From a virus, in the IMG/VR virus record IMGVR_UViG_3300042896_001128, positions 1 through 22,224 of that record: 22,224 bases of DNA; one strand, written 5' to 3'. The stretch's first letter is position 1; each line of letters opens with the position of its first letter. The position numbers were made by a program, and so were the translations under genes. Below the pieces are notes generated by a model. That model did not search any database, had not been told where the DNA came from, and saw only the letters and a list, made by a program, of their open reading frames with translations. Positions 3,292 through 18,820 of this stretch are shown here, in pieces.

Positions 3292-3299
3292 TAAATACA
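3291..3299 (+). promoter_or_regulatory. Late-promoter-like box before tail paralogue 2
   Basis: ATAAATACA lies exactly three bases before the ATG at 3303. It is a two-mismatch version of the ATAAATAAT box found at the same spacing before other late-looking genes in the window. It overlaps the stop codon of the previous gene by one base. Confidence 0.35.
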
Positions 3300-3302
3300 A
3301 AT

Positions 3303-4004: not shown

Positions 4005-4007
4005 AAT

Positions 4008-5568: not shown

Positions 5569-6003
5569 TCAAGGTGCTTTTTTAATATCAGCTACTAATG
5601 CATCAAATGCTTTACCCATTTGAGATGAAAATAGTTTAGCACTGTTTGGCGAAACACCTTTTACGTTAATACCTAATTTTGACATATCATCAAACATCTC
5701 TTTTGTTAAATTATCAATCTTCTTCAATGCTGTTTTCTTATAGCTTTCTACTTTAGCAATATCACCTTGAACACTGCCTAGCTTTTTTTGCTGTTGTGCT
5801 GCTTCAACTCCTGCAATATCGCCTTTAGCACCAGCAACTGCACCTTTAACTGCACCTGTTGCTTGTTGGCCTAATCCTTTAACCGCACCAACAGCCTGTG
5901 CACCTCTAGCCTTTAAAGTATCAAACATACCTTCAGATATAATTTCTAGGTTTGCTGGCTTTTGCTTATAGGTTTCGAAGATTTGATGCGAGTCTTTGTT
6001 CAT
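5569..6003 (-). CDS. Ala/Gly/Lys-rich protein with capsid-leader-like N-terminus
   Basis: 144 residues from the ATG at 6003. The frame is open to 6021, but the extra six codons (MDINNI) lie over a TATAAATA box, and 6003 has the three-base box-to-start spacing seen elsewhere. Residues 1-24 end in IIS-E, an I-x-E site like those cut by T4-type prohead proteases. The next part (25-70) is rich in Ala, Gly, Val and Lys, repeating AVGAVKG- and TGAVKG-like units, which suggests a flexible amphipathic segment. The rest is helical and charged (KKTALKKIDNLTKEMFDDM). I do not recognise the family. An internal head or scaffold-associated protein is the best guess. Confidence 0.6.
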   Translation of the reverse strand: MNKDSHQIFETYKQKPANLEIISEGMFDTLKARGAQAVGAVKGLGQQATGAVKGAVAGAKGDIAGVEAAQQQKKLGSVQGDIAKVESYKKTALKKIDNLTKEMFDDMSKLGINVKGVSPNSAKLFSSQMGKAFDALVADIKKAP

Positions 6004-6006
6004 AAT

Positions 6007-6016
6007 ATTATTTATA
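6007..6016 (-). promoter_or_regulatory. T4-type late promoter box TATAAATA(AT)
   Basis: On the minus strand TATAAATA is followed by AT, then ATT, then the ATG at 6003. This is the exact T4 late -10 consensus. With T4 geometry transcription would begin at about the ATG itself, giving a leaderless message. Confidence 0.55.
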
Positions 6017-6025
6017 TCCATAAAT

Positions 6026-6982
6026 ATGAATATGTATAGATTTATAATAGTTTTTTGTCTATTTTTAACTGGTTGTTCTATGGTACCTGGTTTAAAAATG
6101 CCAGAATCATGGAAAACTTTAGGTAAAACTCCTGATAAAGCTATAGCTGGGGGACGAGCAACAAATGAAGCATTAGGTCAGGTTGCCGATGCTGATAAAA
6201 AACTACAAGAGGCTAGACTGAAAATGGAGCAAGAATATGAGGCTTTTCGCAAAGAATTGCAGGCAGCTTATAAAAAGAGAGAAGAAATAGATTTTGCTAA
6301 TTTTGCCGAAATAAGTAAAATTAATTACGGTATATATTATGTAACAGATAACGATAAGAAAGGTAAAGATATGGACTTTTTAATTGCTCATTTAAGAGCT
6401 AAAGAAAATATGTCACGTTTGGATCAATTACCTGAAGAAACGAGACTATCTATTAGAGCGGAAGTTGATGGAGATAGGAAGAAAACTATGGACGATGTGT
6501 TGAAGAAATATGAGCAAAAGGTAAAAGAAGGCCTTTTAGCTGCTGCAGCATATGAAGAAGCTACTAAACAAATCGAACAAAAAGAAGAAGAAAAGCGTAA
6601 GCTTAGAGAAGAAAACAAATTATCTCTCGAACGTTTAGAGGCTCAAAAACAGGCAGATTTAGAACGTATTAAAAAAGAAACAGAAGCTAAAATTGCATCC
6701 GCTAAAGAAGAACAACGTATGGAAATGTTAGGTTGGATAGTTAAAGCTTTAGGTATAGTGGGTATACTTCAATTAGTAGGTGGGTTATTATTAAAGAGCC
6801 CTACATTTATTATAGCAGGTATCTTTACTTTAGGTATGGCATATATAACCGTTATGGTGCCATTCTGGATAGTAGCCGTATCAATGGGTGTTATAATACT
6901 TGCAATGGTGGTAGTTAACCCTAAGACCGGTAAATGCGATTTATTTAAAAAATTACCACCTCCAGATCAAAAAACATTTTAA
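6026..6982 (+). CDS. Lipoprotein with coiled coil and C-terminal membrane segments (u-spanin-like layout)
   Basis: 318 residues from the ATG at 6026; an in-frame ATG at 6032 is the alternative. The N-terminus MNMYRF-IIVFCLFLTGC is a lipoprotein signal with lipobox LTGC and the lipidated Cys at 17. The following Ser is not an inner-membrane retention signal by the usual +2 rule. Long charged heptad-like helices fill about 48-90 and 170-232. Three hydrophobic segments follow at about 235-256, 258-278 and 280-298, with a short tail (PPPDQKTF). An outer-membrane anchor, a coiled coil and an inner-membrane anchor in one chain is the layout of unimolecular spanins such as T1 gp11, though this protein is much longer. 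A superinfection or envelope protein is the alternative. Confidence 0.6.
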   Translation: MNMYRFIIVFCLFLTGCSMVPGLKMPESWKTLGKTPDKAIAGGRATNEALGQVADADKKLQEARLKMEQEYEAFRKELQAAYKKREEIDFANFAEISKINYGIYYVTDNDKKGKDMDFLIAHLRAKENMSRLDQLPEETRLSIRAEVDGDRKKTMDDVLKKYEQKVKEGLLAAAAYEEATKQIEQKEEEKRKLREENKLSLERLEAQKQADLERIKKETEAKIASAKEEQRMEMLGWIVKALGIVGILQLVGGLLLKSPTFIIAGIFTLGMAYITVMVPFWIVAVSMGVIILAMVVVNPKTGKCDLFKKLPPPDQKTF

Positions 6983-7344
6983 CTTAAATCAAGTAAGTAT
7001 TGAAGATGGTTTAATTCACCTTCAATTTCATCAATTATATTAATTAAGTCTTTATCGGCTTCAGTAGTTAGTTCACTTCTAAGATAGTTAATTAAAGCTC
7101 TTTTTTTATTAGCTATAAATTTTTTTATATCTGTATCTTTAGTAAGAGAATCTATTTCAATATTGTATATATTGTTTTGTAGTGTTTTACCGTACTTACC
7201 GTAATATACTTCAATAAATGTATCGAATAGTTCGTCAAGATTTTCATAAGTTTTACCTAATGCTTTATGCTGAGCGTATGAAAAGGTTTGCCAATGAAAT
7301 ACTTTAAGTTGAGATAAGAATGATAGAAACACTACAATTTTCAT
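6979..7344 (-). CDS. Ferritin/Dps-like small protein (DUF5856-like)
   Basis: 121 residues, all helical in appearance. The segment LKVFHWQTFSYAQHKALG (residues 13-30) followed by DELFDTFIEVYYGKYG (37-52) matches the phage family I know as DUF5856, which resembles the LHW...H and DE..E pattern of Dps/ferritin-like four-helix proteins. His17, His26, Asp37 and Glu45 are candidate metal ligands. The expected role would be metal or DNA binding, but no function is shown here. Its stop overlaps that of the convergent lipoprotein gene within TTAA (6979-6982). An ATAAATATT box lies three bases before the ATG. Confidence 0.6.
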   Translation of the reverse strand: MKIVVFLSFLSQLKVFHWQTFSYAQHKALGKTYENLDELFDTFIEVYYGKYGKTLQNNIYNIEIDSLTKDTDIKKFIANKKRALINYLRSELTTEADKDLINIIDEIEGELNHLQYLLDLS

Positions 7345-7347
7345 AAC

Positions 7348-7356
7348 AATATTTAT
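7348..7356 (-). promoter_or_regulatory. Late-promoter-like box ATAAATATT
   Basis: A one-mismatch version of the ATAAATAAT box, three bases before the ATG at 7344. It overlaps the queE stop codon by one base. Confidence 0.4.
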
Positions 7357-8150
7357 TACACTCGTAATGCCAAATCCCAGATTTGTAAATGTAAACGATT
7401 TGAGAATTTAAATCCATACTTCTTACAAATGTCCGCTACAGCTGGTCCTATTTCAATGAGTTCTTTACGTGAGCCGCACATAGGCATAATCCAAATTAAA
7501 TCTGTTGGTAAATTGATATCTGGGTTATTGACATACTTTTCTAAAACTTCTTCTAGATCTGATTCTTGTTTTGCTACAAACTTAAAACAAGCACCGGAGT
7601 TTACTAAATACTTTAATACCTCTGGCTTATAACGTTTTTCAACTGCATCACCGTTATTAGATAATTTAGGCGACGTCGTAAATGTACACACCCATTTAGC
7701 ACTATATTCCCATTCTTCATCAGGCATGATAGTAGCGTTTGTTTCAAAGTCTATATAGAGTGTAGGTTTCTTTAATTCCGAAACTGAAACTTCTGTAGAG
7801 TAATCATCAAATCCCCATCTCTCATGGATAAACTTTACAAACTCAAGTAGATTTTTTTGTTGAATAAATGGCTCACCACCAGTTATCTTTAGTAAGGCTC
7901 CTTTACGAAGTTGTTCATGATAACCTTTTTTTTCAAAATATTGAGCTATTTCTTCAAAGGTCATTTTATTCTTCTTAGACCAACTCACGTAACTATCACA
8001 ACCAAAAGGTGCATCTTCACTCTTAAACCCAATGCAAGTAAGATTGCACATAGACAATCTCATAAACACTGAAGGCCAACCGATATACTTACCTTCACCT
8101 TCTAAAGTATAAAAAACAAAGTCATCACTGAGATATAGAGTTTTTTCCAT
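7356..8150 (-). CDS. queE: 7-carboxy-7-deazaguanine synthase QueE (radical SAM)
   Basis: 264 residues. QueE converts 6-carboxy-tetrahydropterin to 7-carboxy-7-deazaguanine on the path to preQ0. Landmarks: FYTLEGEG (residues 13-20, the family's substrate-side motif), a radical-SAM cysteine cluster at C35, C39 and C51, KITGGEP (88-94) for SAM binding, and TSPKLS (about 159-164), found in QueE near the substrate. The cysteine spacing is C-x3-C-x11-C rather than the common C-x3-C-x2-C, with an insert ending FGCDSYVSW. It is divergent from phoH across a 26-base spacer. The queD-like gene and folE follow within 4 kb, supporting one pathway. queC is absent from the window. Confidence 0.85.
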   Translation of the reverse strand: MEKTLYLSDDFVFYTLEGEGKYIGWPSVFMRLSMCNLTCIGFKSEDAPFGCDSYVSWSKKNKMTFEEIAQYFEKKGYHEQLRKGALLKITGGEPFIQQKNLLEFVKFIHERWGFDDYSTEVSVSELKKPTLYIDFETNATIMPDEEWEYSAKWVCTFTTSPKLSNNGDAVEKRYKPEVLKYLVNSGACFKFVAKQESDLEEVLEKYVNNPDINLPTDLIWIMPMCGSRKELIEIGPAVADICKKYGFKFSNRLHLQIWDLALRV

Positions 8151-8155
8151 ATCGA

Positions 8156-8174
8156 ATTATATATTAAATATATA
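8156..8174. promoter_or_regulatory. Divergent queE/phoH AT-rich inverted repeat
   Basis: Positions 8158-8174 form an inverted repeat with 8-base arms (TATATATT / AATATATA) around one A. Positions 8156-8170 duplicate 2567-2581 exactly. Leftward the element gives TATATAAT followed by TCGAT and ATG. It is probably a bidirectional promoter, possibly with operator symmetry. Confidence 0.45.
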
Positions 8175-8176
8175 CG

Positions 8177-8935
8177 ATGTCCAATAAAAAATTCCGTAAA
8201 GGAAAGAAAAACGACAATGCTAGTTATAAGGAAATTGAAGAATTAGAAAAGTCATTTAAGACTAAAAAATGGGAATATGATTTCGATGTAACTAATAAGT
8301 TTACATTTAATGTAATACAAAATCAATTCCTAGATGTTATCTTAAAAGATGATTCTTACGCAGCCATTATAGATGGTCCAGCTGGTTCAGCTAAAACATA
8401 TTTAGCTGTAATGGCCGCATTAAAACTACTTTCAACTAGACGATTAGATCAAATCGTTTATGTTAGAAGCGTGGTAGAAAGTGCTAGTAAAAGTATAGGT
8501 TCATTACCTGGAGAAATAGATGAGAAATTCTCTCCATGGGCAATGCCATTGCATGATAAACTAGAGGAGCTTATTTCTCCCGCTGTAATTAAAAACTTAG
8601 TAAGTAGCAATGTTATTAAATGCATACCTGTTAATTTCTTAAGAGGTTTGACATTTAGAGATAGTTTTGTTATAGTAGATGAAGCTCAAAATTTAACTCT
8701 TTCTGAGTTAACCACGATTTTGACCCGATTCGGTCACAACTCTAAATACGCTATACTTGGAGACTCATTTCAAGCTGATATCGGTAAATCATCAGGCTTT
8801 AATAAGATATTGAACGCGTTCGGTACAGATGATTGTAAAGAAAAAGGTATTTTCACTTTCAAATTTACAGAAAGTGAAATAGTTAGAAGTCAGATCTTAA
8901 GATTTATTGTCAGTAAGCTTAAGAGTATTAGCTAA
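8177..8935 (+). CDS. phoH: PhoH-like P-loop ATPase
   Basis: 252 residues. After a basic, charged N-terminus (SNKKFRKGKKNDN) comes the PhoH ATPase core: Walker A GPAGSAKT (67-74), VRSVVESASKSIGSLPGE (97-113, family-specific), Walker B VIVDEAQN (165-172) and LGDSFQADIG (194-203). PhoH-like genes are common in marine phages and are often regarded as phosphate-stress or RNA-metabolism genes, but their phage function is unsettled. No Shine-Dalgarno sequence precedes the ATG (ATATACG). The 3' end overlaps the convergent small gene by 39 bases, the largest overlap in the window. Confidence 0.9.
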   Translation: MSNKKFRKGKKNDNASYKEIEELEKSFKTKKWEYDFDVTNKFTFNVIQNQFLDVILKDDSYAAIIDGPAGSAKTYLAVMAALKLLSTRRLDQIVYVRSVVESASKSIGSLPGEIDEKFSPWAMPLHDKLEELISPAVIKNLVSSNVIKCIPVNFLRGLTFRDSFVIVDEAQNLTLSELTTILTRFGHNSKYAILGDSFQADIGKSSGFNKILNAFGTDDCKEKGIFTFKFTESEIVRSQILRFIVSKLKSIS

Positions 8936-9178
8936 TTCCTTAATAGCCTCCTCATAACTAACTATTCTAGTCTTATGAGGAGGGTTAAAAACTTTCTTAG
9001 TCTGTTGAGGTACTACGCCGTCAATAGCTTTTTGCATTTTTTCGTTTACTGAGCGTTCTAACTCAACAGACTTAGGATCTTTTTCAATAAAAGACTTTGG
9101 GGTAATATTGGGTAAAACCACATTCATAACGTTTGGTTTACCTGCAATATAATTACCGTATATGTCTTTTAACTTCAT
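8897..9178 (-). CDS. Small unknown protein
   Basis: 93 residues; family not recognised. The first 40 residues are Pro/Asn/Val-rich (NVVLPNITPKSF) and the rest is charged and probably helical (VELERSVNEKMQKAI, then SYEEAIKELANTLKL). There is no signal peptide, membrane segment or leader-like L-x-E site near the start. The coding case rests on a full open frame, an AT box three bases before the ATG, and tight spacing (4 bases) to the queD-like gene. Its last 39 bases overlap phoH on the other strand. Confidence 0.6.
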   Translation of the reverse strand: MKLKDIYGNYIAGKPNVMNVVLPNITPKSFIEKDPKSVELERSVNEKMQKAIDGVVPQQTKKVFNPPHKTRIVSYEEAIKELANTLKLTDNKS

Positions 9179-9181
9179 AAA

Positions 9182-9190
9182 TTTATTTAT
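9182..9190 (-). promoter_or_regulatory. Late-promoter-like box ATAAATAAA
   Basis: A one-mismatch version of the ATAAATAAT box, three bases before the ATG at 9178. It overlaps the end of the queD-like gene. Confidence 0.4.
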
Positions 9191-9866
9191 TACCCCAAGA
9201 GGTTCCTTTAAATAAGTCCTTGTAAGTATTCTTGGTTTTTGTTTGATAAAGCGGTGGGTATAAAGGTTGTGTGGGAGGCGGGGGTGGTTGCGGTTGTGGT
9301 GTAGACGATGGTTCTGGTGATGATGATGAGTTTTTAACCTCTACCGGCGACTCATCATTACTGAGTGGTTTATAATCTAGTTTAGATTCTTGTTCTGAAA
9401 CATACTTTTGCATGTAAGAACGTTCATATGTTGCAGAGTTAAGTTCATGTTCCCAAACTTCCACTTTATCTACCCAGCATCTATTATTTGTTTTTTCAGC
9501 AATAAACTTATTTGCAATACCAAAACAATGCTCAGCAAACTTTTCTATACCAACACCGTCTGGAAAAATACGTAAGTCTATAATTCCTTTTTCATGAAGC
9601 ATTTCAAATACAGAACGTTGTGGATCTTTACCCCAAATAACAGTTGTATGATCAAACGTTTGTTCTAAGAGTGTCTTTAACTCTTTAAGTGCACCAAAAT
9701 CTACCACCCAGTTATTACGATCTAATTTATCGCATGAAAACCAAAACTTTGCTTGTAATCTATAACCGTGTAGAAATTTGCAATGACTATCTGCATATGG
9801 TTGACGAAATGCACAAGAACCGAGAGGAATTACTTTAGTTGAGGTAAACTTAGCTGTATATATCAT
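9183..9866 (-). CDS. queD: QueD-like 6-carboxytetrahydropterin synthase with Pro-rich tail
   Basis: 227 residues. The N-terminal 150 are a QueD/6-pyruvoyl-tetrahydropterin synthase domain: ADSHCKFLHGYRL (25-37) holds the catalytic-Cys region (C29) and a zinc His (H33); VVDFG (54-58), FDHTTV (71-76, catalytic Asp-His) and WEHE (138-141, pterin-binding Glu) follow. Compared with E. coli QueD, the first zinc His is a Cys (C18) and HGH is HGY. A low-complexity tail (about 158-210, Ser/Pro-rich with a run of five Pro) ends in a conserved-looking DLFKGTSWGNK. The enzyme would convert dihydroneopterin triphosphate from FolE to the QueE substrate. The ATG abuts a hairpin. Confidence 0.8.
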   Translation of the reverse strand: MIYTAKFTSTKVIPLGSCAFRQPYADSHCKFLHGYRLQAKFWFSCDKLDRNNWVVDFGALKELKTLLEQTFDHTTVIWGKDPQRSVFEMLHEKGIIDLRIFPDGVGIEKFAEHCFGIANKFIAEKTNNRCWVDKVEVWEHELNSATYERSYMQKYVSEQESKLDYKPLSNDESPVEVKNSSSSPEPSSTPQPQPPPPPTQPLYPPLYQTKTKNTYKDLFKGTSWGNK

Positions 9867-9889
9867 CTGGGTATTATGTAATATCCCAG
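9867..9889 (-). promoter_or_regulatory. Hairpin abutting the queD-like start codon
   Basis: On the minus strand CTGGGATATT, then ACAT, then AATACCCAG can form a nine-pair stem with a one-base bulge and a 4-base loop. It ends directly at the ATG (9866). There is no following T-run, so it is not an intrinsic terminator. It could hide the start codon region and control translation. Confidence 0.4.
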
Positions 9890-9910
9890 TGTATTTTCAA
9901 CTACTATTTG

Positions 9911-11419
9911 TTAAAATTTTAACTCGGTTTGTTTAGGTTGTTTTGTTGCTTTAGGCTTCGGTTTTGATTTAGCCTTACTTGATACCCCTTTTGCTTGATT
10001 TTGATCGTAGAATTTAGTATTTCTATCAAACGATGTGTTTAGCTTAGAGGCATCTAAAATGTAATAATCTTTACCTTCAGAGAACTGAAACGGGGCACTA
10101 ACACTTGCATATATTTCACCTGGAGTGCCTCTTTTAGCACCGGATTGTACGAATTTATCTTTAAAGCTAGTTAAACCGGTTTTGTTAGTAAATGCAGATG
10201 GCTTAAAGTTAAACTTAATAAGTTTATTAGCATCATCTCTGCTAATAATATCAACGTTATTTACAGATACCGGTAAGCTAGATTTATATATAACTGGTAA
10301 TTTTTTAGTAGCTATTTTTGAATTTACAGCATACGCTTTTTTGTTTTCATCATATGCGTATTTCAAACCTGAAAACATCAACTGGGGAATTGTATTTGTA
10401 GGTGAGCTGTAAAAGTAAACATCAACCGTATTGTTACCTTGACTTTTATCGTCAGATCTAAAAAGTGTAACTTGACTTACACCAATCTCATTTAGTAAGC
10501 TTGCTAAAGCTTCACTTTCCGGTTTCAAAAGAAACTGCGTACCTTTAGCAAATTTTTTTTCATTTTCAATATTAAAAATTAAATTGCTTTCATTAAAACT
10601 ACCAGTGGGTTGTTCAACTTCAGGTGTAACCTCAGGTACAATTTCAGATTCAATTTCACCTTTTAAATCTGGGTCAGCTCTAACTAAACTAACAACATTT
10701 TGCACACCAGTTTCTTTTTGTTCTGTAGCCATTTGTTGCTTCTCTTTTTCATACTGTTGCTGCATATCCATACCCTGCAATATGTAGTAAAGTTTAATTT
10801 TCTCTTCACGAGACATTGAACGAACAATTCTTAAAGCTTTTTCTCTATTTTTAGCTCTTTGTTTGTCAATTCTAGGTTTTATCTTTAAAGGAAATTCCAA
10901 CTGCTCACCTTCAGGTTGCGTACGTTTTACTTGTTTTTTAGGTTCTTTTTTAGGTTCTTCTTTTTTAAGAAAATCAAATATACCTTCATTTACTCTATCT
11001 AAAAATGATTCTTTTTTTACAACCGAACTAGAATATTGATTTAGTGCGTCAATTATTCCCTCATCATTCAAATTTACTCTTCTAAATCCTTTTTTGCCTA
11101 ACGATAAAGCTTTAATGGTGTTTTTATCGTAAAGGCGTTCTAGTAAAGTATTACCTATATCTTCAAGTTTGCTTAAATCTCCTTCACCTATCTGTCTAAA
11201 GGTTCTTGCTCCTTGTTCTATATTTTTAATTGTACTTCCAATAGTCTTTAAAACATTACCAACATACTCTAAAGTTACTTCAGATTTTTCTTGGGGTTTT
11301 TCACTTAACATATAACCTTCATATGATTTAGAAGAATCTACTGGATCAGTTTTTAACCTAAACTTTTTTAACTTTTGCTCGTGCTCTTTAAAGATAGCTT
11401 CTAATTTAAACGAACTCAT
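9911..11419 (-). CDS. Large Lys-rich protein with leader-like N-terminus, probable virion-associated protein
   Basis: 502 residues from the ATG at 11419. The frame is open from 11488, but the upstream codons overlap the folE start and an ATAAATAAT box sits three bases before 11419. MSSFKLEAIFKE ends in an F-x-E site; a second site-like stretch, SFLDRVNEGIFDFL (about residues 148-161), has V-N-E followed by GIFDFL, echoing ISEGMFDTL in the 5569-6003 protein. A Lys/Glu/Pro-rich linker (about 162-180), an Arg/Lys-rich helical part (MSREEKIKLYYILQGMDMQQQ), a compact domain in the last 200 residues and a basic tail follow. The family is not recognised; an internal head protein cut at several sites is plausible. 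Confidence 0.6.
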   Translation of the reverse strand: MSSFKLEAIFKEHEQKLKKFRLKTDPVDSSKSYEGYMLSEKPQEKSEVTLEYVGNVLKTIGSTIKNIEQGARTFRQIGEGDLSKLEDIGNTLLERLYDKNTIKALSLGKKGFRRVNLNDEGIIDALNQYSSSVVKKESFLDRVNEGIFDFLKKEEPKKEPKKQVKRTQPEGEQLEFPLKIKPRIDKQRAKNREKALRIVRSMSREEKIKLYYILQGMDMQQQYEKEKQQMATEQKETGVQNVVSLVRADPDLKGEIESEIVPEVTPEVEQPTGSFNESNLIFNIENEKKFAKGTQFLLKPESEALASLLNEIGVSQVTLFRSDDKSQGNNTVDVYFYSSPTNTIPQLMFSGLKYAYDENKKAYAVNSKIATKKLPVIYKSSLPVSVNNVDIISRDDANKLIKFNFKPSAFTNKTGLTSFKDKFVQSGAKRGTPGEIYASVSAPFQFSEGKDYYILDASKLNTSFDRNTKFYDQNQAKGVSSKAKSKPKPKATKQPKQTELKF

Positions 11420-11422
11420 GAT

Positions 11423-11431
11423 ATTATTTAT
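11423..11431 (-). promoter_or_regulatory. Late-promoter-like box ATAAATAAT
   Basis: An exact ATAAATAAT box followed by ATC and the ATG at 11419. It lies in the divergent spacer opposite folE. Confidence 0.5.
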
Positions 11432-11433
11432 TG

Positions 11434-11448
11434 ATTTCCTTAGGAAAT
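11434..11448. promoter_or_regulatory. Inverted repeat in the divergent folE spacer
   Basis: Seven-base arms ATTTCCT and AGGAAAT flank a single T. The repeat lies between the leftward box at 11423 and the folE ATG at 11465, where a repressor or activator site would be expected. No protein can be assigned. Confidence 0.3.
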
Positions 11449-11464
11449 GTACTATCATATACAT

Positions 11465-12124
11465 ATGAAATGTGAACGTGTGAAACATCCTACTATACCA
11501 ACAGCTAATAGCAATTTACCAAGAACAGAAGAAGAGAAGCAGCAGATCATAGAAAACGCTACTACAGCATATGAAGCTTTTCTCGACGCTTTATGTATTG
11601 ATTGGCGTAATGATCCTAACAGTGACGGTACTCCTCGTAGAGTAGCTAAAGCTTATGTTAGAGATATAGCTTCAGGATGCTATGACCAACCACCGAAGAT
11701 TACCTCGTTTCCTGCAGATGGTTATGATGGTATGGTGTTTCAAGGTGGTATACCAGTTAAGTCATTATGCAGCCATCACCATCTTGCCTTTACTGGTGTA
11801 GCTCATGTAGCGTATATTCCAAGTCTTAAAGGCAGAGTTATCGGTCTTTCTAAATTAAACCGTATTGTTGAGTTTTATGCAAGACGTCCGCAGATTCAAG
11901 AAGGATTGACCATGCAGATTCATCAGGCTGTTTCCGAAGTTTGTGAAATGAATTTAGGTGTTGCAGTTATGGTAAGTGCAACTCATACTTGTGCTTGCAA
12001 TAGAGGTGTACGACATGACGGTTGTGAGATGAATACATCTAAACTATCTGGTGACTTTTTAAATGATGCAGCTGTAAGAGCTGAATTTTATCAGTTTATT
12101 AATCACTGGTCTAGACAGAAGTAG
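11465..12124 (+). CDS. folE: GTP cyclohydrolase I FolE
   Basis: 219 residues from the ATG at 11465; an in-frame ATG six codons upstream overlaps the spacer and is less likely. FolE turns GTP into dihydroneopterin triphosphate, which feeds folate or, here more likely, QueD. Family landmarks: DGTPRRVAKAY (54-64), SLCSHHHLAFTG (100-111) with zinc ligands C102 and H105, IGLSKLNRIVEFYARRPQ (126-143), and HTCACNRGVRHDGCEM (174-189) with a third zinc ligand at C176. The usual CEHH is CSHH, and the last motif has extra Cys residues compared with the common HMCMxxRG. The 3' end overlaps the convergent protease-like gene by 14 bases. Confidence 0.9.
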   Translation: MKCERVKHPTIPTANSNLPRTEEEKQQIIENATTAYEAFLDALCIDWRNDPNSDGTPRRVAKAYVRDIASGCYDQPPKITSFPADGYDGMVFQGGIPVKSLCSHHHLAFTGVAHVAYIPSLKGRVIGLSKLNRIVEFYARRPQIQEGLTMQIHQAVSEVCEMNLGVAVMVSATHTCACNRGVRHDGCEMNTSKLSGDFLNDAAVRAEFYQFINHWSRQK

Positions 12125-12539
12125 TATTTGTTCCTAAATTATACTCCTTAGTTACATCTATAACACCGCCGTTTTTAACAATAAAGTCTTTACCAATGAG
12201 TACTGGTTGCTCATTGGTTCCTCTATCTGATATAGAAAACGGTATATTTTTCCAAAGTTTACCACCAAACTCTATATCAAAAGTAACTACTGGTCGTTTT
12301 TCTACTTTACCAGCACCTATATTAATGTCAATATAGTCTTTAACTCTTTTAGTTAAACCTTTACCGCCAACTGTTTTAAAGTTTATCATATCTCCGTACT
12401 CTTGAACATCAGTCCCGTGTAGAACATTAAAAGCCCCGTTACCGCTATCAACTTTAGCGTCAACGGGGCCTAGTTCTTTAAAAACTACAGTTTCTACTAA
12501 ACCTAATGCTCTTTCAAAAAATAATTGGTATGATAACAC
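12111..12539 (-). CDS. Retropepsin-like (RimK-type zinc-protease-like) protein, GTG start
   Basis: 142 residues. VDAKVDSGNGAFNVLHG (26-42) puts Asp31 in a DSG version of the DTG aspartic-protease motif. RPVVTFDIEFGG (82-93), ISDRG (103-107) and VLIGKDFIVKNGGVIDV (113-129) match the pepsin/retropepsin-fold family called ATP-dependent zinc protease (PF05618-like). The start is GTG at 12539, supported by an ATAAATAAT box three bases upstream. The N-terminus SYQLFFERALGLVE resembles a capsid-leader with F-F-E and L-V-E sites. It may be a virion-carried protease; T4's prohead protease is an unrelated serine enzyme. Confidence 0.65.
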   Translation of the reverse strand: MLSYQLFFERALGLVETVVFKELGPVDAKVDSGNGAFNVLHGTDVQEYGDMINFKTVGGKGLTKRVKDYIDINIGAGKVEKRPVVTFDIEFGGKLWKNIPFSISDRGTNEQPVLIGKDFIVKNGGVIDVTKEYNLGTNTTSV

Positions 12540-12542
12540 CCA

Positions 12543-12551
12543 ATTATTTAT
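12543..12551 (-). promoter_or_regulatory. Late-promoter-like box ATAAATAAT before a GTG start
   Basis: An exact ATAAATAAT box, then TGG, then GTG at 12539. The conserved three-base spacing supports GTG as the true start. Confidence 0.5.
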
Positions 12552-12748
12552 TAAGCTACCTTAGCGCCTTTCAGTTCTTTCTTGCGTTCTTGAATCTGCT
12601 TTCTCAAGGTACGGGTAAGCTTACCAATTTCCAAGAGAGCTTTACGAGCTCTAGCTGCAGCAGAGCTATTGTTCTTTTCTGTAAACTTTACAATCTCTTC
12701 CTGAAATGTTGCAAAGTTGGTCTGTAATGAAGTAATGTTTTCGTTCAT
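12551..12748 (-). CDS. Histone H1-like (Hc1-type) small protein
   Basis: 65 residues from the ATG at 12748; the frame is open to 12781, but MNENITSLQT is the natural start. The pattern of an acidic first helix (NFATFQEEIVKFTEKN), Ser/Ala, then a basic Ala-rich helix (ARARKALLEIGKLTRTLRKQIQERKKELKGAK) resembles the Hc1 histone-like family known best from Bacteroidota and Chlamydia. The role would be DNA binding or compaction. No leader-like cleavage site is present. An AT-rich inverted repeat touches the start codon instead of the ATAAATAAT box. Family assignment is moderate, since basic coiled helices are easily confused. Confidence 0.55.
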   Translation of the reverse strand: MNENITSLQTNFATFQEEIVKFTEKNNSSAAARARKALLEIGKLTRTLRKQIQERKKELKGAKVA

Positions 12749-12766
12749 ACAATATGATATTATTGT
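12749..12766 (-). promoter_or_regulatory. Inverted repeat abutting the histone-like gene start
   Basis: On the minus strand ACAATA, then ATATCA, then TATTGT directly precede the ATG at 12748. The six-base arms are perfect. It could be a weak hairpin in the message or a protein-binding site. Confidence 0.3.
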
Positions 12767-12800
12767 AAATATATAAATCAACTAACGCATTTAACTGTTT

Positions 12801-13037
12801 TTATTTCCACTGCACTCTACCTGGGCCTTTTTTTCTATGCATTTTATGTTTAATAGTTTTACACTGAGCATGAGAAGGTCTACAAACCGGATACTTACCA
12901 CCTTTACTTTTTGAAGAACATGGTCCTCCAGTTCGACAATTTATCCATCCTCTGAACTTTTTACCAGTTCTTTTATCTTTGTGAGATTTAAACCAATCTC
13001 TCAAAGACTCGTTAAAAAACTCTACAAATTTAACCAT
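12801..13037 (-). CDS. Small basic Cys-rich phage protein with leader-like N-terminus
   Basis: 78 residues. MVKFVEFFNESLRDWF has a leader-like start ending in F-N-E (residues 8-10). The rest is a conserved phage module: FRGWINCRTGGPC (28-40), GGKYPVCRP (46-54), C59, and a KKGPGRVQWK end. The four cysteines (34, 40, 52, 59) could form a zinc-knuckle-like site, though this is unproven. The protein is strongly basic and may bind nucleic acid. Its ATG shares one base with the stop codon of the preceding gene (TAATG), so the two are translationally coupled. Confidence 0.7.
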   Translation of the reverse strand: MVKFVEFFNESLRDWFKSHKDKRTGKKFRGWINCRTGGPCSSKSKGGKYPVCRPSHAQCKTIKHKMHRKKGPGRVQWK

Positions 13038-13345
13038 TACTTTTTCTTTTTAAAAGCTTTACCTTTGCGACACTTTACTAGAGCGCCGGATGCATATGCG
13101 CTAGGCCATACTTTATATCTTGCCTTCACGGCGTAATAACAACGATCTTTTTTTTCAGTCAACATCCATCTTTCAAAATAATTTAAAAATGATTCTTGCC
13201 CTTCCTTTTTAAGATACTTCTTAATTTGTTTCTTAGTCATTTCTTTGGCAGCTTTTTTAGCTGCTCCAGAAACTCCCTTTTGACCCTTTTTAGCACCCAT
13301 TACTGCACCAAAGAATCTTTTTTGTTTTTCTGTTGTTGATGGCAT
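13037..13345 (-). CDS. Small Lys-rich phage protein with KVWPSAYASGALVKCR module
   Basis: 102 residues in three parts. Residues 5-48 (KQKRFFGAVMGAKKG, then GVSGAAKKAAKEMTKKQIKKYL) match a common phage module of unknown function. Residues 50-64 (GQESFLNYFERWMLTE) look like a capsid leader ending in L-T-E but sit inside the protein. Residues 68-95 hold RCYYAVKARYKVWPSAYASG and ALVKCRKG, a motif widespread in phages and large DNA viruses. The end is Lys-rich. Cleavage after Glu64 would free a 38-residue basic peptide. CTAAATAAT lies three bases before the ATG. Confidence 0.7.
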   Translation of the reverse strand: MPSTTEKQKRFFGAVMGAKKGQKGVSGAAKKAAKEMTKKQIKKYLKKEGQESFLNYFERWMLTEKKDRCYYAVKARYKVWPSAYASGALVKCRKGKAFKKKK

Positions 13346-13348
13346 AAA

Positions 13349-13357
13349 ATTATTTAG
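13349..13357 (-). promoter_or_regulatory. Late-promoter-like box CTAAATAAT
   Basis: A one-mismatch box, then TTT, then the ATG at 13345. It fits exactly in the gap after the previous gene's stop codon. Confidence 0.45.
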
Positions 13358-13648
13358 TTACCAATTTTTGCAGCTATAATATTTAGCTGTGCCAGGTTTT
13401 GCTGTAGAACATTTATGGCGTGCTCTAAACGATTTACGACGTTTTGGATTGGATTTCTTAATACGTAAATTCGGATCACCGTAGTGTATTCTTTTTAGTT
13501 TACCATCTACTCTTGCACATCTCATATACTTTTTATCTGATCTGGTAGATGATTGTTGACCGGTTACCTTGGTACATCTCTTACCTTTCTTTTCTTCTAT
13601 AATGGTAAATTCGTTTAGTAATTGTTCTACCAATGTATCAAATCTCAT
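13358..13648 (-). CDS. Small basic phage protein with RARHKC module and leader-like N-terminus
   Basis: 96 residues from the ATG at 13648; the frame is open to 13672, but those codons lie over the palindromic promoter. MRFDTLVEQLLNE ends in L-N-E at 11-13, the clearest leader and cleavage-like site in the window. The C-terminal half carries KRIHYGDPNLRIKKSNPKRR and KSFRARHKC...KYYSCKNW (72-96), a conserved domain found in many phage proteins. It is strongly basic, with Cys25, 44, 80 and 93. The product after cleavage would be about 83 residues. It is probably virion-internal or nucleic-acid-binding. Confidence 0.7.
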   Translation of the reverse strand: MRFDTLVEQLLNEFTIIEEKKGKRCTKVTGQQSSTRSDKKYMRCARVDGKLKRIHYGDPNLRIKKSNPKRRKSFRARHKCSTAKPGTAKYYSCKNW

Positions 13649-13651
13649 ACA

Positions 13652-13667
13652 ATTATTTATAAATAAT
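13652..13667. promoter_or_regulatory. Palindromic bidirectional late promoter
   Basis: ATTATTTATAAATAAT is a perfect 16-base palindrome holding TATAAATAAT on both strands. Leftward it is followed by TGT and ATG (13648); rightward by AAC and ATG (13671). Both starts have the three-base spacing seen elsewhere. Only one polymerase could occupy it at a time. Confidence 0.6.
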
Positions 13668-13670
13668 AAC

Positions 13671-14156
13671 ATGAGAATTACCGGTGCTGATAAAAATGAA
13701 ATCTTTAGTAAGTATATGCAATTGAACGAGGATGTTGGTCTCGGACCAAACGTTAATGGTAGGGGTATGATGAAAGTAACTACTATCGGTGATAGTGATT
13801 CAGCTGCAGCAGTTCAAAGAAGACCATCAGCAGCAGCTGCCGGGTCTGGTAATTTATCAGTAGGCGGTGTTCAGAAGAATGTAGGTCCTGGTGCGGAAAA
13901 CAATGAAGAAGAAGCTTGCGGTCCTGATGCAGTAGATATGGCAAAACGTCAGCTATTAAACATAGCTAATAGATCTATCGAATTATTTGAAAATCTACAT
14001 AACGGTGGTAAATTAGAACCTTGGGTAGCTTCTAAAATAACTTTAGCAGAAGATTACATTATAACATCAAGCGATTATGTAGCTTTCGATGATAATAAGA
14101 AAATGCCGCCTGTAACTGGAATGGTTGATATAGAAACCGAAGAGTTTCCTAACTAA
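13671..14156 (+). CDS. Conserved phage protein with LEPWVASKITLAEDYI domain and leader-like N-terminus
   Basis: 161 residues from the ATG at 13671; the frame is open from 13569, but those codons overlap the divergent gene and its promoter. MRITGADKNEIFSKYMQLNE ends in L-N-E (18-20), a leader-like site. A Gly/Ala/Ser-rich linker follows, including RRPSAAAAGSGNLSVGG. The C-terminal domain (about residues 88-135) reads MAKRQLLNIANRSIELFENL and LEPWVASKITLAEDYI, a helical motif I know from many T4-like phage hypothetical proteins. Function is unknown; a head-associated role is inferred. The end overlaps the convergent ligase-like gene by 4 bases. Confidence 0.7.
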   Translation: MRITGADKNEIFSKYMQLNEDVGLGPNVNGRGMMKVTTIGDSDSAAAVQRRPSAAAAGSGNLSVGGVQKNVGPGAENNEEEACGPDAVDMAKRQLLNIANRSIELFENLHNGGKLEPWVASKITLAEDYIITSSDYVAFDDNKKMPPVTGMVDIETEEFPN

Positions 14157-15988
14157 ATTAATTTCTTATTAAACAAATTATAAACATCGGGCTTAAACTT
14201 ACCGTATAAGTCAGTTATTATTTGTTTCCTTTGATTATCGTTAGAGCGCTTATAGAGATCTCTTATTTCGCTTGCGCTTTTAACATCGCCATCACTTAAT
14301 TTAAACTTTACCGTGGGTATAGTCATTATATAACCATGTTTTTCGATAGGTTCTAACTTATCTTTACTTACAAATCTTTGGAAATACGTAGGTGAACCAT
14401 CTTTTTTAACTCCAAATTTAAATCTTGGATTAGGACCTTTCATATCTTTTTCACCTACTACAAATATAATTCTTGCTGATGATTTATCGTACTTGTTTAA
14501 TAGTTCAGGAGCTTTATAAGGTTGTGCTGTTTTTACTACATCCTGTGGATGAATTCCACTTGAAACTATCATCTGTAGTTTATCATCAAAAGTGAACGGA
14601 GACGTATCCTTATCGGTAGCATCAGACGTGGCTATAAAAACTTGAGCTTCCGGAAACAATTGTTTAAGTTTGTTATAAACTGCAGCATGACCTAAATGAA
14701 AAGGTTGAAATCTTCCCGGATATACAACGATTAATTTTTGTGATTCTGGTCTGAATGTACCCACTGCCATGTCAACCATTTCACCAAACGTCGCTGGCTT
14801 CGGTACAAGTGTTCTACCCTCTACACCCCAACCCGGGTATGCATAAACACTATTTGGTGTGTTCTGACCGCCTTGATCTAAGTAAGGTGAATCAAAATTT
14901 TCATCTTCTTCACCTTCTTCTGGAGATTTTTTAAACGGTGTTTGTAGACCTGATAGTATAAAGCTACCGGTAATTTTTACCGGTGTAGGAGATATTCTTG
15001 TGTCTCTTAAAACTACACCTTCATGTTTATCAGCTGAACCCATATCAGTATCTGAATGTCTTAAAATTTCATCACCTAACAATCTTGTCGCGTGATATAA
15101 GACTGCTCCATCTACTACGTCATCAAAATCTTTTTTATCTTTAACAAAATTTTCTAGAGGTGTACCGTTTAAGATATTAATGTAGTTCTGTTTAAGCATT
15201 GCACTTACACTTCTACCGTCAGATAGGGTAACCTGTTTATTGAAAGGATTGCTTGCAGAATTTAAAAATTCAATTAATGGTTTAGTAATTTTTTGTCCTT
15301 GAGCTATTACGGTAAATGGGATATTTAAAATTTTATCAAACGACGGTAACTTCTTTAAATTCACTCCAACTTCACCGTAAACTTTAAAGTTTTGATTCTT
15401 AGCAACTTTATTAACTTCTTCGATGAGAGAAGCTAATGCTTGTTTATCATATGGAATTTCTACACTGTCGCGTCTCTTAGGTGTAGCTTGTACAAATTTA
15501 TTAACTCCGTGAATAGCTAAAAAGTCGTGGTCATATGCTAGTACGTTGGTTTGTCCTTGTACAAACTCTGTGTTTAAAAATATATTAGAATTCTGAAGCA
15601 TTCCTAATTGCTGCAATTGTTTAAGAATGTTAGGTAAAGCTTCGTTGAAAATTGTTAATGTTTTTTCTCCTGCAGCTACCATTCCATGACCTGCACCGAA
15701 TCTAGACTCTAAATCATTTAAAGTTATACCTTCAACGTCTAAAGGTTTCATTGAACCTCTATCTAATGCAAATTGAAGTATGTTATCTTTACGCACCACT
15801 TTGAGGCTAACGTTTAGGCCGTCAATCTTTAAAGTACCTTTAGAAGTTTTTAAAGAATTAGATGCTTTGTTAAAAAAATTAACTAAGTCTTTTCCTGTTT
15901 TTATTTCAGGCAGCTCGAAAGGATGTGCCATATGACCAGCTGCTCCACCTTCTAATAAAAAATAAGTTTTGAAATTAAGCATTTGCAA
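14153..15988 (-). CDS. Fusion of a ligase-like nucleotidyltransferase and an NMN-adenylyltransferase-like domain
   Basis: 611 residues; a second ATG two codons in (15982) is an equally good start. MLNFKTYFLLEGGAAGHM looks like a capsid leader with L-L-E (residues 11-13). Domain 1 has KIDGLNVSL (54-62; KxDG as in motif I of DNA/RNA ligases, with Lys54 the candidate nucleotidyl-lysine), YGEVGV (204-209, motif III-like), HEGVVLRD (322-329, motif IV-like) and PVKITGSF (336-343, motif V-like). Domain 2 has GRFQPFHLGH (425-434) and SASEIRD (571-577), the two signatures of the cytidylyltransferase/NMNAT superfamily. Related two-domain proteins occur in T4-like marine phages, often annotated as cytidylyltransferase. 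The substrate is unknown. Confidence 0.75.
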   Translation of the reverse strand: MQMLNFKTYFLLEGGAAGHMAHPFELPEIKTGKDLVNFFNKASNSLKTSKGTLKIDGLNVSLKVVRKDNILQFALDRGSMKPLDVEGITLNDLESRFGAGHGMVAAGEKTLTIFNEALPNILKQLQQLGMLQNSNIFLNTEFVQGQTNVLAYDHDFLAIHGVNKFVQATPKRRDSVEIPYDKQALASLIEEVNKVAKNQNFKVYGEVGVNLKKLPSFDKILNIPFTVIAQGQKITKPLIEFLNSASNPFNKQVTLSDGRSVSAMLKQNYINILNGTPLENFVKDKKDFDDVVDGAVLYHATRLLGDEILRHSDTDMGSADKHEGVVLRDTRISPTPVKITGSFILSGLQTPFKKSPEEGEEDENFDSPYLDQGGQNTPNSVYAYPGWGVEGRTLVPKPATFGEMVDMAVGTFRPESQKLIVVYPGRFQPFHLGHAAVYNKLKQLFPEAQVFIATSDATDKDTSPFTFDDKLQMIVSSGIHPQDVVKTAQPYKAPELLNKYDKSSARIIFVVGEKDMKGPNPRFKFGVKKDGSPTYFQRFVSKDKLEPIEKHGYIMTIPTVKFKLSDGDVKSASEIRDLYKRSNDNQRKQIITDLYGKFKPDVYNLFNKKLI

Positions 15989-16991
15989 ATTCGATTTGAT
16001 GACCTAAAACGGTATTGTAATCTAAATTATATTTAATGTCTGAAATGTTATATAACTGCTCCACCGTTGTTTCACCATCGAAGTTAAAAGAAATGAACTT
16101 AACTTCATTATCTACATCGAATAAAACTAACCTATCAAATTTGTTTTCTACCTGATAACCTAATAACGATATACAACCTATTATTTTACCAACAAATTTT
16201 AGTTGTAAATTAGATAGTTCAGGATTTATATTATGTTTTAAAACGTCAAGAATGTCCTGTAATTTTGTAGTTACAAACTGTTTGAGTTTATATCTTTCAT
16301 CAAGCACACAACCTGCAGCTTTTTGAATAATATCCATAATCATATCAACCTGAACATCCGCAGACGTTTGGTCTAAAACAGCTTTGAAATCTTCTTTGCT
16401 GGGTTTAATTTTGTTACCGGTTGGAAGTCTTCCTTGATTCTTTTTTAATTCATACAACAAACCACCCATATAAACATCCCCTTTTCTTATTCCTTTATCT
16501 GTCAATTTACCTTTTTCACCATTACCGTAAAAATTTATAAACAATTCACCTTTGCCGGTTTTGTTCATTGTTACATCTGTAGGAGGCTCCGTCGTTACTA
16601 TATTATGAAAATTTTTGCTTTCTAAAATTTTCGATTTATCAACGTCGTAAGCTAATGAAAGAACAGTTGCAAAATTATTTTTAAATCCCGTACATGAAGT
16701 AAATTGATCAAATAGCTGAGCAAACTTTTCATTTTTTAACACATCATCGATTGCAATATCTAAGTCATTATTTAAACCATCAAACAAGTCTATAAACTGT
16801 ATAGCATTTAAATTATTAAGTTTTTGGATAGTTACGTTTCTACGAACCTGCTTTTCAGGAGCGCCGAAAGAAATTTTTGGTTCGATATCAGTTGTGTAGA
16901 AACTTTTGGTTACCGTTCCTACTTTGGTAAACTTATGGTCTGTTAAATCGTAAACGTATAATACTAAATTAGGTGACGTATCACCTGTCAT
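15975..16991 (-). CDS. Unknown protein with PD-(D/E)XK-nuclease-like motif
   Basis: 338 residues. The only motif I can see is GKGEL (146-150), then GDVYMGGLLYELKKNQGRL (171-189). The GE...GD...ExK order fits a PD-(D/E)XK nuclease core with Glu149, Asp172, Glu181 and Lys183. Similar stretches occur in unannotated proteins of marine T4-like phages. The N-terminal 120 residues and the C-terminal half show no recognised domain. The gene begins two bases after the previous stop and overlaps the ligase-like gene by 14 bases, so it sits in one translated unit with it. No leader is seen on this protein. A structural role remains possible. Confidence 0.55.
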   Translation of the reverse strand: MTGDTSPNLVLYVYDLTDHKFTKVGTVTKSFYTTDIEPKISFGAPEKQVRRNVTIQKLNNLNAIQFIDLFDGLNNDLDIAIDDVLKNEKFAQLFDQFTSCTGFKNNFATVLSLAYDVDKSKILESKNFHNIVTTEPPTDVTMNKTGKGELFINFYGNGEKGKLTDKGIRKGDVYMGGLLYELKKNQGRLPTGNKIKPSKEDFKAVLDQTSADVQVDMIMDIIQKAAGCVLDERYKLKQFVTTKLQDILDVLKHNINPELSNLQLKFVGKIIGCISLLGYQVENKFDRLVLFDVDNEVKFISFNFDGETTVEQLYNISDIKYNLDYNTVLGHQIEFANA

Positions 16992-16993
16992 AA

Positions 16994-17332
16994 TTATATT
17001 GATGTATTCGGATTACTATCAATATCAATATCAGCTGAGTAAGTTTTCATTATTGTTAGTAATTTATTAATGATTTCATCAGCATTTTTTTCATTAATTT
17101 CTGGCAACTGTGAAATTTTATAACGATCATCATCACTGATATTCATGGTAAGAGCTTTCTTAAGCAAATTACCCATGGTTGCAATACCTGCTGGTACATC
17201 TGGTGTATTGTTAGTATCTTCTGCTGGTGGTATTGTATCAGCTGGAGATGATCCAGACTCCGGAGGAGGTGGTACGTCCTGTTCTGAAAGAAGCTTAGAA
17301 TGTTGTTCGATTATTTGAATAAATTTAGACAT
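16994..17332 (-). CDS. Small acidic protein with leader-like N-terminus
   Basis: 112 residues; family not recognised. MSKFIQIIEQHSKLLSE gives L-S-E at 15-17, and I-I-E at 7-9 is a second candidate site. A Pro/Ser/Asp-rich linker (PPPPESGSSPADTIPPAEDTNN) follows, then a probable helical domain from about 47 (AGIATMGNLLKKALTMNISDDDRYKI). The overall charge is acidic, unlike the basic small proteins at 12801-13648. It overlaps the previous gene by 8 bases and is followed by the next after 2 bases, so it belongs to a tightly coupled operon. Confidence 0.65.
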   Translation of the reverse strand: MSKFIQIIEQHSKLLSEQDVPPPPESGSSPADTIPPAEDTNNTPDVPAGIATMGNLLKKALTMNISDDDRYKISQLPEINEKNADEIINKLLTIMKTYSADIDIDSNPNTSI

Positions 17333-17603
17333 TTATACCTTTCAATCTTTGAGAAAGTTTATCCATTAGACGAGCATATTCTGCTTTTAAAGCTTGTTGT
17401 TTTTGTGGATCTGTTGCTCCAAGTTTACTAGCAACTTGAACTGCTGCTACAGTTTGAGGAGTAACTCCTAGTTGTTTTAATGATTCATCTGAAACATCTG
17501 TTACAGTTTCAGCATCCTCTTCTGAGGAATAAACTACCTGTTCTTGTTTTTCTTTTAAAACGTATTTTAAAATGTTGTTAGCCTTTTCAGTAAATAGATC
17601 CAT
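17325..17603 (-). CDS. Small helical protein with leader-like N-terminus
   Basis: 92 residues; family not recognised. MDLFTEKANNILKYVLKE ends in L-K-E (16-18), a leader-like site. An acidic part (SSEEDAETVTDVSDE) is followed by a Gln/Ala-rich helix (TVAAVQVASKLGATDPQKQQ) and a basic C-terminus. An ATAAATAAT box precedes the ATG by three bases. It overlaps the next gene by 8 bases and heads the run that leads to the ligase-like gene. Confidence 0.65.
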   Translation of the reverse strand: MDLFTEKANNILKYVLKEKQEQVVYSSEEDAETVTDVSDESLKQLGVTPQTVAAVQVASKLGATDPQKQQALKAEYARLMDKLSQRLKGINV

Positions 17604-17606
17604 AAT

Positions 17607-17615
17607 ATTATTTAT
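17607..17615 (-). promoter_or_regulatory. Late-promoter-like box ATAAATAAT
   Basis: An exact box followed by ATT and the ATG at 17603. It probably starts the four-gene run ending with the ligase-like gene at 14153. It overlaps the last base of the preceding gene. Confidence 0.5.
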
Positions 17616-18157
17616 TAAACTGTTAATAATTTAGTTTTGAATCTGTTAAGATAATCTTTATCTAAAAACGTTAAATCATACTTCTTAGCAAACTTTTTAA
17701 TTTTCTCTAACGTAAAGGACTTATTATCTTTATTACAACATTGTTGTATACAACCATTTAATATTAAATTCACTTTATCATCTTTAACATCTAAAGCAAA
17801 TACATCTTCATCAACTACGCATATTTTTATTGGAAGCATTTTTTCTAGCTTGTTAAAAAACTTTATTAAAAACTGTACTAAGGTTTCTTCATCGTAATAG
17901 TAAGTTAAATCGCATGGTTGTATAAATTTAGAGTTAAACACGAGTAGCGGTTTACCTGCATATTCCTGTAATAAAGTTTCACTTATATCATGTATTAAAC
18001 TATGGTAAAATATCTTTGTAACATCCTTACTGGTTATTTTATCTTCAATTAAATTATACGAACGAAGCAAATTTGCAATATTAAGCTGGTACTTTTCTGC
18101 AAAAAGTGTATTAAAACTTAATACAGTAATATTGTGTTGCTCAAGTTCCAGTTTCAT
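17615..18157 (-). CDS. Unknown protein
   Basis: 180 residues; family not recognised. It looks like a mixed alpha/beta globular protein. Hydrophobic strands include NITVLSFNTLF (9-19), KPLLVFNSKF and PIKICVVDEDVFALDV. LNGCIQQCCNKDNKSF carries a Cys cluster (CIQQCC) of unknown meaning. No signal, membrane segment or leader is seen. TATAAATG overlaps the start codon rather than standing three bases upstream, so it may be read through from the upstream genes. It lies 22 bases after the GIY-YIG gene. Confidence 0.6.
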   Translation of the reverse strand: MKLELEQHNITVLSFNTLFAEKYQLNIANLLRSYNLIEDKITSKDVTKIFYHSLIHDISETLLQEYAGKPLLVFNSKFIQPCDLTYYYDEETLVQFLIKFFNKLEKMLPIKICVVDEDVFALDVKDDKVNLILNGCIQQCCNKDNKSFTLEKIKKFAKKYDLTFLDKDYLNRFKTKLLTV

Positions 18158-18179
18158 TTATAATGTTATAGCTGTGTTC

Positions 18180-18587
18180 CTAGGATTTGACTTTAAATCT
18201 AGGCAATCTGCAGTTTATTATACCATTATAAAATGATTCTTCCAGCAAAACGTTGTTATCAAATTGCATTTTAGCTTCGAAATAGGCGAGTTCAGCCTTG
18301 GACTGACAAAAACGTAAAATTTCAAATTTGAAGTTATCTTTACCTAAATCTTGTAAATCTTGATTGACATCATTTGAGGATGATGTATACGTTCTCCAAT
18401 CCGTTTCTATATCAAAATGTCTTTTATTTTTCTTTCCTTTTAAAGGCTTTAATTTTTTAACAGACTTAATTTGTTTTTTACCAATATACTTCTTACCGTT
18501 TACTAAATTAGTAATCATATAAATGAAACCATATGGTAGATTATTTTCATCTACTGGTAATGATGTTGTCCAATGGCCTAAATTCAT
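18180..18587 (-). CDS. GIY-YIG nuclease-like protein
   Basis: 135 residues. YGFIYMITNLVNGKKYIGKKQ (residues 19-39) is the GIY-YIG signature, here GFIY...KYIG. WRTYTSSS (64-71) and the candidate catalytic Glu104 in YFEAKMQF follow at the expected distances, and a conserved Asn lies near the end (NGIINCRLPR). The family cuts DNA in repair, restriction or homing. No DNA-binding addition of the kind carried by Seg-type homing enzymes is visible, and closely similar single-domain proteins are common in T4-like phages. The ATG overlaps the previous stop (ATGA, 4 bases). Confidence 0.75.
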   Translation of the reverse strand: MNLGHWTTSLPVDENNLPYGFIYMITNLVNGKKYIGKKQIKSVKKLKPLKGKKNKRHFDIETDWRTYTSSSNDVNQDLQDLGKDNFKFEILRFCQSKAELAYFEAKMQFDNNVLLEESFYNGIINCRLPRFKVKS

Positions 18588-18820
18588 TTCTTTTTCTTTT
18601 TACGCTTATTTCTTCTCTTGATTACTCCGAATATTGATTTAGGAAGTCTGAAATCTCCAGGCGCATAGGTATCAGTACCAGTAGTACCTGATGCTGTACC
18701 TGTTGTATACATCGTTGGTGAATTACCTAATGCACCGCCTGATCCTGCAGTATTACCTGAGGTAGATACGTAATTAGGACCCATTTCTCTCAAAATTCTT
18801 AAAAAAATATGTTTATACAT
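18584..18820 (-). CDS. Small Gly/Thr/Ser-rich protein with leader-like N-terminus
   Basis: 78 residues. MYKHIFLRILRE ends in L-R-E (10-12), a leader-like site; MGPN at residue 13 is the alternative start. The middle is Gly/Thr/Ser-rich and low in complexity (STSGNTAGSGGALGNSPTMY and TTGTASGTTGTDTYAPGDFR), and the end is a basic run (KRRNKRKKKKK). The family is not recognised; an unstructured virion protein with a nucleic-acid-binding tail is possible. It is preceded by an exact TATAAATA box with an ordinary 20-base leader, unlike the other late genes here, which supports the start at 18820. Confidence 0.6.
   Translation of the reverse strand: MYKHIFLRILREMGPNYVSTSGNTAGSGGALGNSPTMYTTGTASGTTGTDTYAPGDFRLPKSIFGVIKRRNKRKKKKK

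Follow-up and report, generated by a model that had tools for sequence, protein, structure and literature searches.

In phage T4, the internal proteins IPI, IPII and IPIII and the protein Alt, all cleaved by gp21, have unrelated bodies behind N-terminal leaders of about 10–19 residues that end in a hydrophobic-x-Glu motif, and leaders of the same build, with a gp21-family protease in complete relatives, are found in the marine lineage described here. The ejection proteins of SPN3US and phiKZ-like giant phages offer a further parallel, with many head proteins whose propeptides are cut by the prohead protease. In cyanophages, a SAM hydrolase, an APH-like kinase, an NMNAT-like cytidylyltransferase and Cas9 were the enzymes detected in S-CREM2 virions besides two endolysins (PMC10665884), and an NMNAT-like protein was reported in the virions of S-SM1 (PMC3037559) and S-SCSM1 (PMC9602691); the cyanophage authors caution that enzymes in CsCl-purified particles could be contaminants. 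No targeting leader was linked to these virion proteins in the accessible portions of the open-license full-text literature that we searched.

The window, i.e., the whole 22,224-base stretch of a virus record analyzed here, encodes a T4-type late sigma factor, UvsY and UvsW, and its phage is a marine relative of T4. Since UvsW is ~27–34% identical to that of the nearest named isolates, relatives were taken from IMG/VR; a search for related loci with the 14153 protein as query (genes are named by their first coordinate in Table 1) gave no match, and the relatives were therefore reached via UvsW and via terminase. Several of the terminase relatives, with lengths of 217–230 kb, encode both a gp21-family protease and gp23. 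A gp21-like protease gene, which a preliminary description of this DNA had named as one to look for, is present together with a gp23 homolog in eight long relatives but absent from the window; the window is a 22-kb fragment that lacks head genes, so that evidence for the protease comes solely from relatives.

The preliminary description had attributed a common N-terminal leader to about ten proteins, and all ten starts lie where it had placed them (Table 1), with orthologs of nine of the ten keeping the leader in alignments. The ten starts are real but make up two leader classes rather than a single set (5569 and 13671 belong to class 2), and the list, correct for these ten, had overlooked an internal leader in gene 13037. 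Conserved leaders in the nine families are 10–24 residues long and share a layout: at about position 3–4 there is an aromatic or aliphatic residue, amphipathic spacing follows, and hydrophobic-x-Glu then leads to a small or polar residue. The control genes (queE, phoH, folE, UvsW, and gp55) lack the leader, and so do the tail genes of the window, which have no hydrophobic-x-Glu leader. Gene 15975–16991 is without a leader, and its orthologs start leader-like (MYKTLNQVYSE, MSWKSLTDIYLQE). We consider the leaders to be, very probably, capsid-targeting propeptides like those of T4, serving here for an unusually wide range of cargo.

Table 1. Leader-bearing genes and two further features of the window; a slash marks the leader junction.
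Coordinates	Strand	Product	Leader (position)	Remarks
2590–4763		Three tail-fiber-like paralogs in tandem		Common domain at the ends
5569–6003	-	144-aa protein, alanine-rich repetitive body	Class 2, MNKDSHQIFETYKQKPANLEIISE/ (5932–6003)	N-terminal motif enrichment
9911–11419	-	502-aa protein	MSSFKLEAIFKE (11384–11419)	Leader-like start in orthologs L008, L026, L030, G013, G014; further Glu sites in interior (SFLDRVNE/GIFDFL)
12111–12539	-	Retropepsin-like aspartic peptidase (PF05618; NCBIfam RloA3/RimB)	MLSYQLFFERALGLVE (12492–12539)	GTG start, also in G012 and G014 orthologs; leader in 7/8 orthologs
12551–12748		Histone H1-like Hc1 domain protein		Leader-free, amid leader genes
12801–13037	-	Small basic Cys-rich protein	MVKFVEFFNE (13008–13037)	Orthologs MKFDDLVDNYLTE/ASDSLHKWFK...
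13037–13345	-	Two-domain protein	Internal, ESFLNYFERWMLTE/ (13154–13195)	Leader lies ahead of KKDRCYYAVKARYKVWPSAY
13358–13648	-	Basic Cys-rich protein, RCTKVTGQQSSTR body	MRFDTLVEQLLNE (13610–13648)	Modularity test over 80 loci; possible second site FTIIEE
13671–14156	+	Gly/Ala-rich body	Class 2, MRITGADKNEIFSKYMQLNE/ (13671–13730)	
14153–15982	-	Fusion of RNA-ligase-like domain (KIDGLN motif) and NMNAT-like domain (PF01467)	MLNFKTYFLLE (15950–15982)	Leader region disordered in structure model
16994–17332	-	Acidic/Pro-rich 112-aa protein	MSKFIQIIEQHSKLLSE (17282–17332)	Leader in 24/25 orthologs
17325–17603	-	Acidic 92-aa protein	MDLFTEKANNILKYVLKE (17550–17603)	Leader in 10/11 orthologs
18584–18820	-	Mini-gp23: leader, copy of capsid mature N-arm, poly-Lys tail	MYKHIFLRILRE (18785–18820)	

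With a leave-one-family-out weight matrix, the ten leaders outscored both internal null segments (combined P = 4e-6) and control genes (P = 0.001), with those of 9911, 12111, and 14153 not significant when taken singly. When trained on window-lineage leaders alone, the matrix ranked the nine known gp21 substrates of T4 above other T4 genes (P = 6e-4), which bears out the likeness to T4 internal-protein leaders proposed at the outset, and the protease and core protein of the complete relative G031 were among its top matches. The matrix is not specific, and chance is expected to account for a sizeable share of its matches in complete genomes (e.g., at score 8, for 8 of the 26 in G031). A strict regular expression matched five leaders in the window against 1.1 in shuffles, an excess that is weakly above chance, and the case therefore does not rest on a single expression; in the genome-wide count that had been suggested, simple leader expressions were weakly enriched. 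Blind motif discovery by expectation maximization yielded a motif that was amphipathic and diffuse, and this approach was abandoned. The modest enrichment of a single regular expression would suit amphipathic starts arising by chance and picked by eye, an explanation that is extremely improbable, being contradicted by the ortholog and modularity tests as well as by held-out scoring, the T4 cross-check, and the proteome matches described below.

In the class-2 form, to which two of the ten leaders belong, the cleavage-like site is at residue 20–24. Leaders of this type, like MNKDSHLIFEAY, head many unrelated proteins in relatives, and were found N-terminally 18 times in the window and relatives, compared with ~2.5 expected from internal rates. 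The 5569 protein has no ortholog; its start, MNKDSHQIFETY, is an almost exact copy of MNKDSHLIFEAY, and its junction (ISE/GMFD) resembles one in G012 (ISE/GIFD). The 13671 leader has a conserved cleavage-like Glu at residue 20, and orthologs keep a Glu at about this position after hydrophobic-x (YKQVNE/DVGLGP, YTKLDE/AGCVAN). Separately, three genes of one genome (G011 857–1453, 77947–78390, and 79256–79612) start with MTFNELYTLLENDFMNGLD or nearly so, forming a leader-like repeat family.

The leader is modular, common to otherwise unrelated proteins. The basic Cys-rich body of the 13358 type is widespread in marine phages, and in T4-type contexts it bears a leader in 21 of 29 loci, vs. 4 of 51 in other phages, where the remaining 47 start directly at the body; the associated Fisher P = 3e-9 is optimistic, because the rows of this comparison of 80 loci are related to one another. 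As for the four exceptions, two are on gp23-carrying contigs, the third has the same leader sequence as one of these two, and the fourth is a 4-kb fragment. One form of this protein, MKTYREFVTE/AEY, nearly repeats the T4 internal-protein leader MKTYQEFIAE/A. Where genes are split or fused, the leader remains at the domain border: the NMNAT-like domain standing alone bears its own leader in four relatives (L080, L085, G031, and G032), and the second domain of gene 13037 has an N-terminal leader in L082/L083 and an internal one in the window (junction FLNYFERWMLTE/KKDRCYY).

The T4 capsid protein is cleaved at residue 65, and capsid proteins of the window lineage have a candidate cleavage site (...WCLRE/AGPNY, ...WCLNE/ANVAGG) close to this, at about residue 60. 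The leader Glu aligns with this candidate site, and the protease and core protein of the relatives carry leaders themselves. From the alignment with capsid, protease and core sites we infer that the leader would be removed by the protease, the leader Glu probably being the cleavage site. Gene 18584 continues, after its leader, with a copy of the candidate capsid cleavage site, its Glu aligned with that of the capsid protein, followed by the mature N-arm and, at the end, poly-lysine; searched against all G031 proteins, its best match is the major capsid protein (score 138; next 58; shuffle maximum 47). Comparable N-arm mimics are present in G029, G013 and cyanophages, including within S-SCSM1 ORF97 and S-CREM2 gp160, both listed as virion proteins, and none was detectable in HTVC008M. 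An N-arm copy with a basic tail is seen in L335 13121–13306, window 18584–18820, and S-CREM2 gp160 (L328 28342–29235), and in the last of these the mimic and the second domain of 13037 are strung together with L/I-x-E linkers between segments, as if the protein were a cargo polyprotein.

The leaders might instead have a different role, for example in guiding proteins to GroEL, the tail or the neck, with the Glu motif incidental. Judging by its title, a paper cited in PMC10052503 describes the targeting of proteins to GroEL by the gp23 N-terminus. We regard such a role as very unlikely, as the hydrophobic-x-Glu motif is conserved at domain borders and aligned with the candidate capsid cleavage site, and the window tail genes do not have it.

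The leader genes also look late-expressed. Within the window lineage, a T4-late-promoter-like box (TATAAATA or TAAATAAT) is located ≤30 nt upstream of 48 of 135 leader genes, compared with 34 of 409 low-scoring genes (odds ratio ~5), with the same trend in the held-out genomes G031 and G032. In its exact form, TATAAATA shows no enrichment across the whole window. TAAATAAT is mostly found 3 nt upstream of the start codon, both in the window (5569, 9911, 12111, 13037, 13358, 13671, and 17325) and in many relatives, and by T4 late-promoter spacing the transcript would therefore start at about the ATG, which suggests leaderless late mRNAs for the genes preceded by this box.

Turning to the cyanophage proteomes, which come closest to testing the idea by experiment, the SAM hydrolase, kinase, and virion-detected NMNAT-like protein of S-CREM2 start with MKDFDSFLEE, MKRFDAFLTE, and MKNFSSFLTE, respectively, and its Cas9 has LRFASFMAE/AA slightly inside the N-terminus, while the NMNAT-like proteins of S-SM1 and S-SCSM1 start with MKKFSAFLNE/AE and MKSFLQFLKE/AA. 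Both domains of gene 13037 also have virion counterparts, the first resembling S-SCSM1 ORF93 and the second being contained in S-CREM2 gp160 (E = 5e-14), and S-CREM2 homologs of the window phoH, UvsW and gp55 are not among the virion proteins detected. A 12801-like stretch in gp160 was set aside, scoring barely above shuffles (66; shuffle maximum 62). Among non-structural S-CREM2 proteins, 5 of 10 with a leader by the T4-like rule were detected, vs. 21 of 181 others, with P = 0.005, a value that is not blind because both S-CREM2 leader rules were drawn up with the detected N-termini already in view. The matrix score failed to discriminate between non-structural S-CREM2 proteins that were detected and those that were not (P = 0.11), and several leader-like S-CREM2 proteins are absent from the detected virion set. 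By analogy, packaging of the leader proteins is supported by these homologs and same-leader proteins in cyanophage virions.

The cargo is unusually broad, comprising the RNA-ligase-like/NMNAT-like fusion, the retropepsin-like peptidase, basic Cys-rich proteins, acidic core-like proteins, and the capsid N-arm mimic. The RNA-ligase-like domain of 14153 has an invariant K-x-D-G-x-N motif and weak fold matches to RNA ligases, and the call is supported by a leader-bearing protein of a relative that matches Pfam RNA_ligase. An Fe/Mn superoxide dismutase with leader MNYDELADVILESVEG is encoded at L098 17272–17895 (= G013 55272–55895) and G014 26449–27069. One might speculate that such cargo would serve NAD supply, nucleic-acid repair, and protection from oxidation inside the host.

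Alternatively, the leaders might mark prohead core (scaffold) proteins that help to build the head and are mostly degraded, with few staying in the virion. Such sites are present in the T4 core proteins gp22, gp67, and gp68; in the window, 16994 and 17325 encode small acidic proteins and 9911 contains several such sites in its interior. Some of the small acidic leader proteins may indeed belong to the core and be broken down instead of being retained. As an account of the whole set, however, this is unlikely, since several bodies are folded enzymes (NMNAT-like, peptidase, and superoxide dismutase in G013/G014), and homologs of the NMNAT-like protein were detected in virions.

Taken together, at least ten unrelated proteins, enzymes included, are most likely tagged for loading into the virus head. 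As a capsid-targeting propeptide, the leader would bind the scaffolding core during prohead assembly, and the protein bound to the core would thereby be enclosed; the gp21-type protease would then cut after the leader Glu, releasing the mature protein within the head ahead of DNA packaging. It is plausible that retained proteins are ejected into the host with the DNA, where they would act at the start of infection. We lean slightly toward a more general hypothesis, in which marine phages of the T4 type have in common a general code for loading cargo. This code would comprise two leader classes, processing sites between domains by which small domains in a row become cargo polyproteins, and a mimic of the capsid N-arm, and it would place enzymes such as the RNA-ligase-like/NMNAT-like protein, retropepsin-like peptidase, superoxide dismutase, SAM hydrolase, kinase, and Cas9 in the head for delivery at infection.

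Cyanophage proteomics repeatedly finds virion enzymes, and the authors were unable to tell cargo from contamination. A recognizable leader allows a sequence-level prediction of which marine phage genes of unknown function are likely packaged, and suggests the exact mature N-terminus of each protein. The leaders are also candidate tags for loading foreign proteins, and they would reveal the functions that such phages deliver ahead of any phage gene expression.

Compared with the T4 internal proteins, the window lineage has more and more varied putative cargo per genome and two leader classes, its leaders also occur between domains, and its putative cargo includes a capsid N-arm mimic. In SPN3US and phiKZ-like phages, cleavage follows A-x-E, whereas the motif of the window lineage is L/I-x-E. 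The virion proteins of S-CREM2, S-SM1, and S-SCSM1 (NMNAT-like, SAM hydrolase, APH-like kinase, and Cas9) have the same leader type as the window, with two bodies in common; the available text of those reports gives the proteins without mention of a leader and discusses contamination as an alternative.
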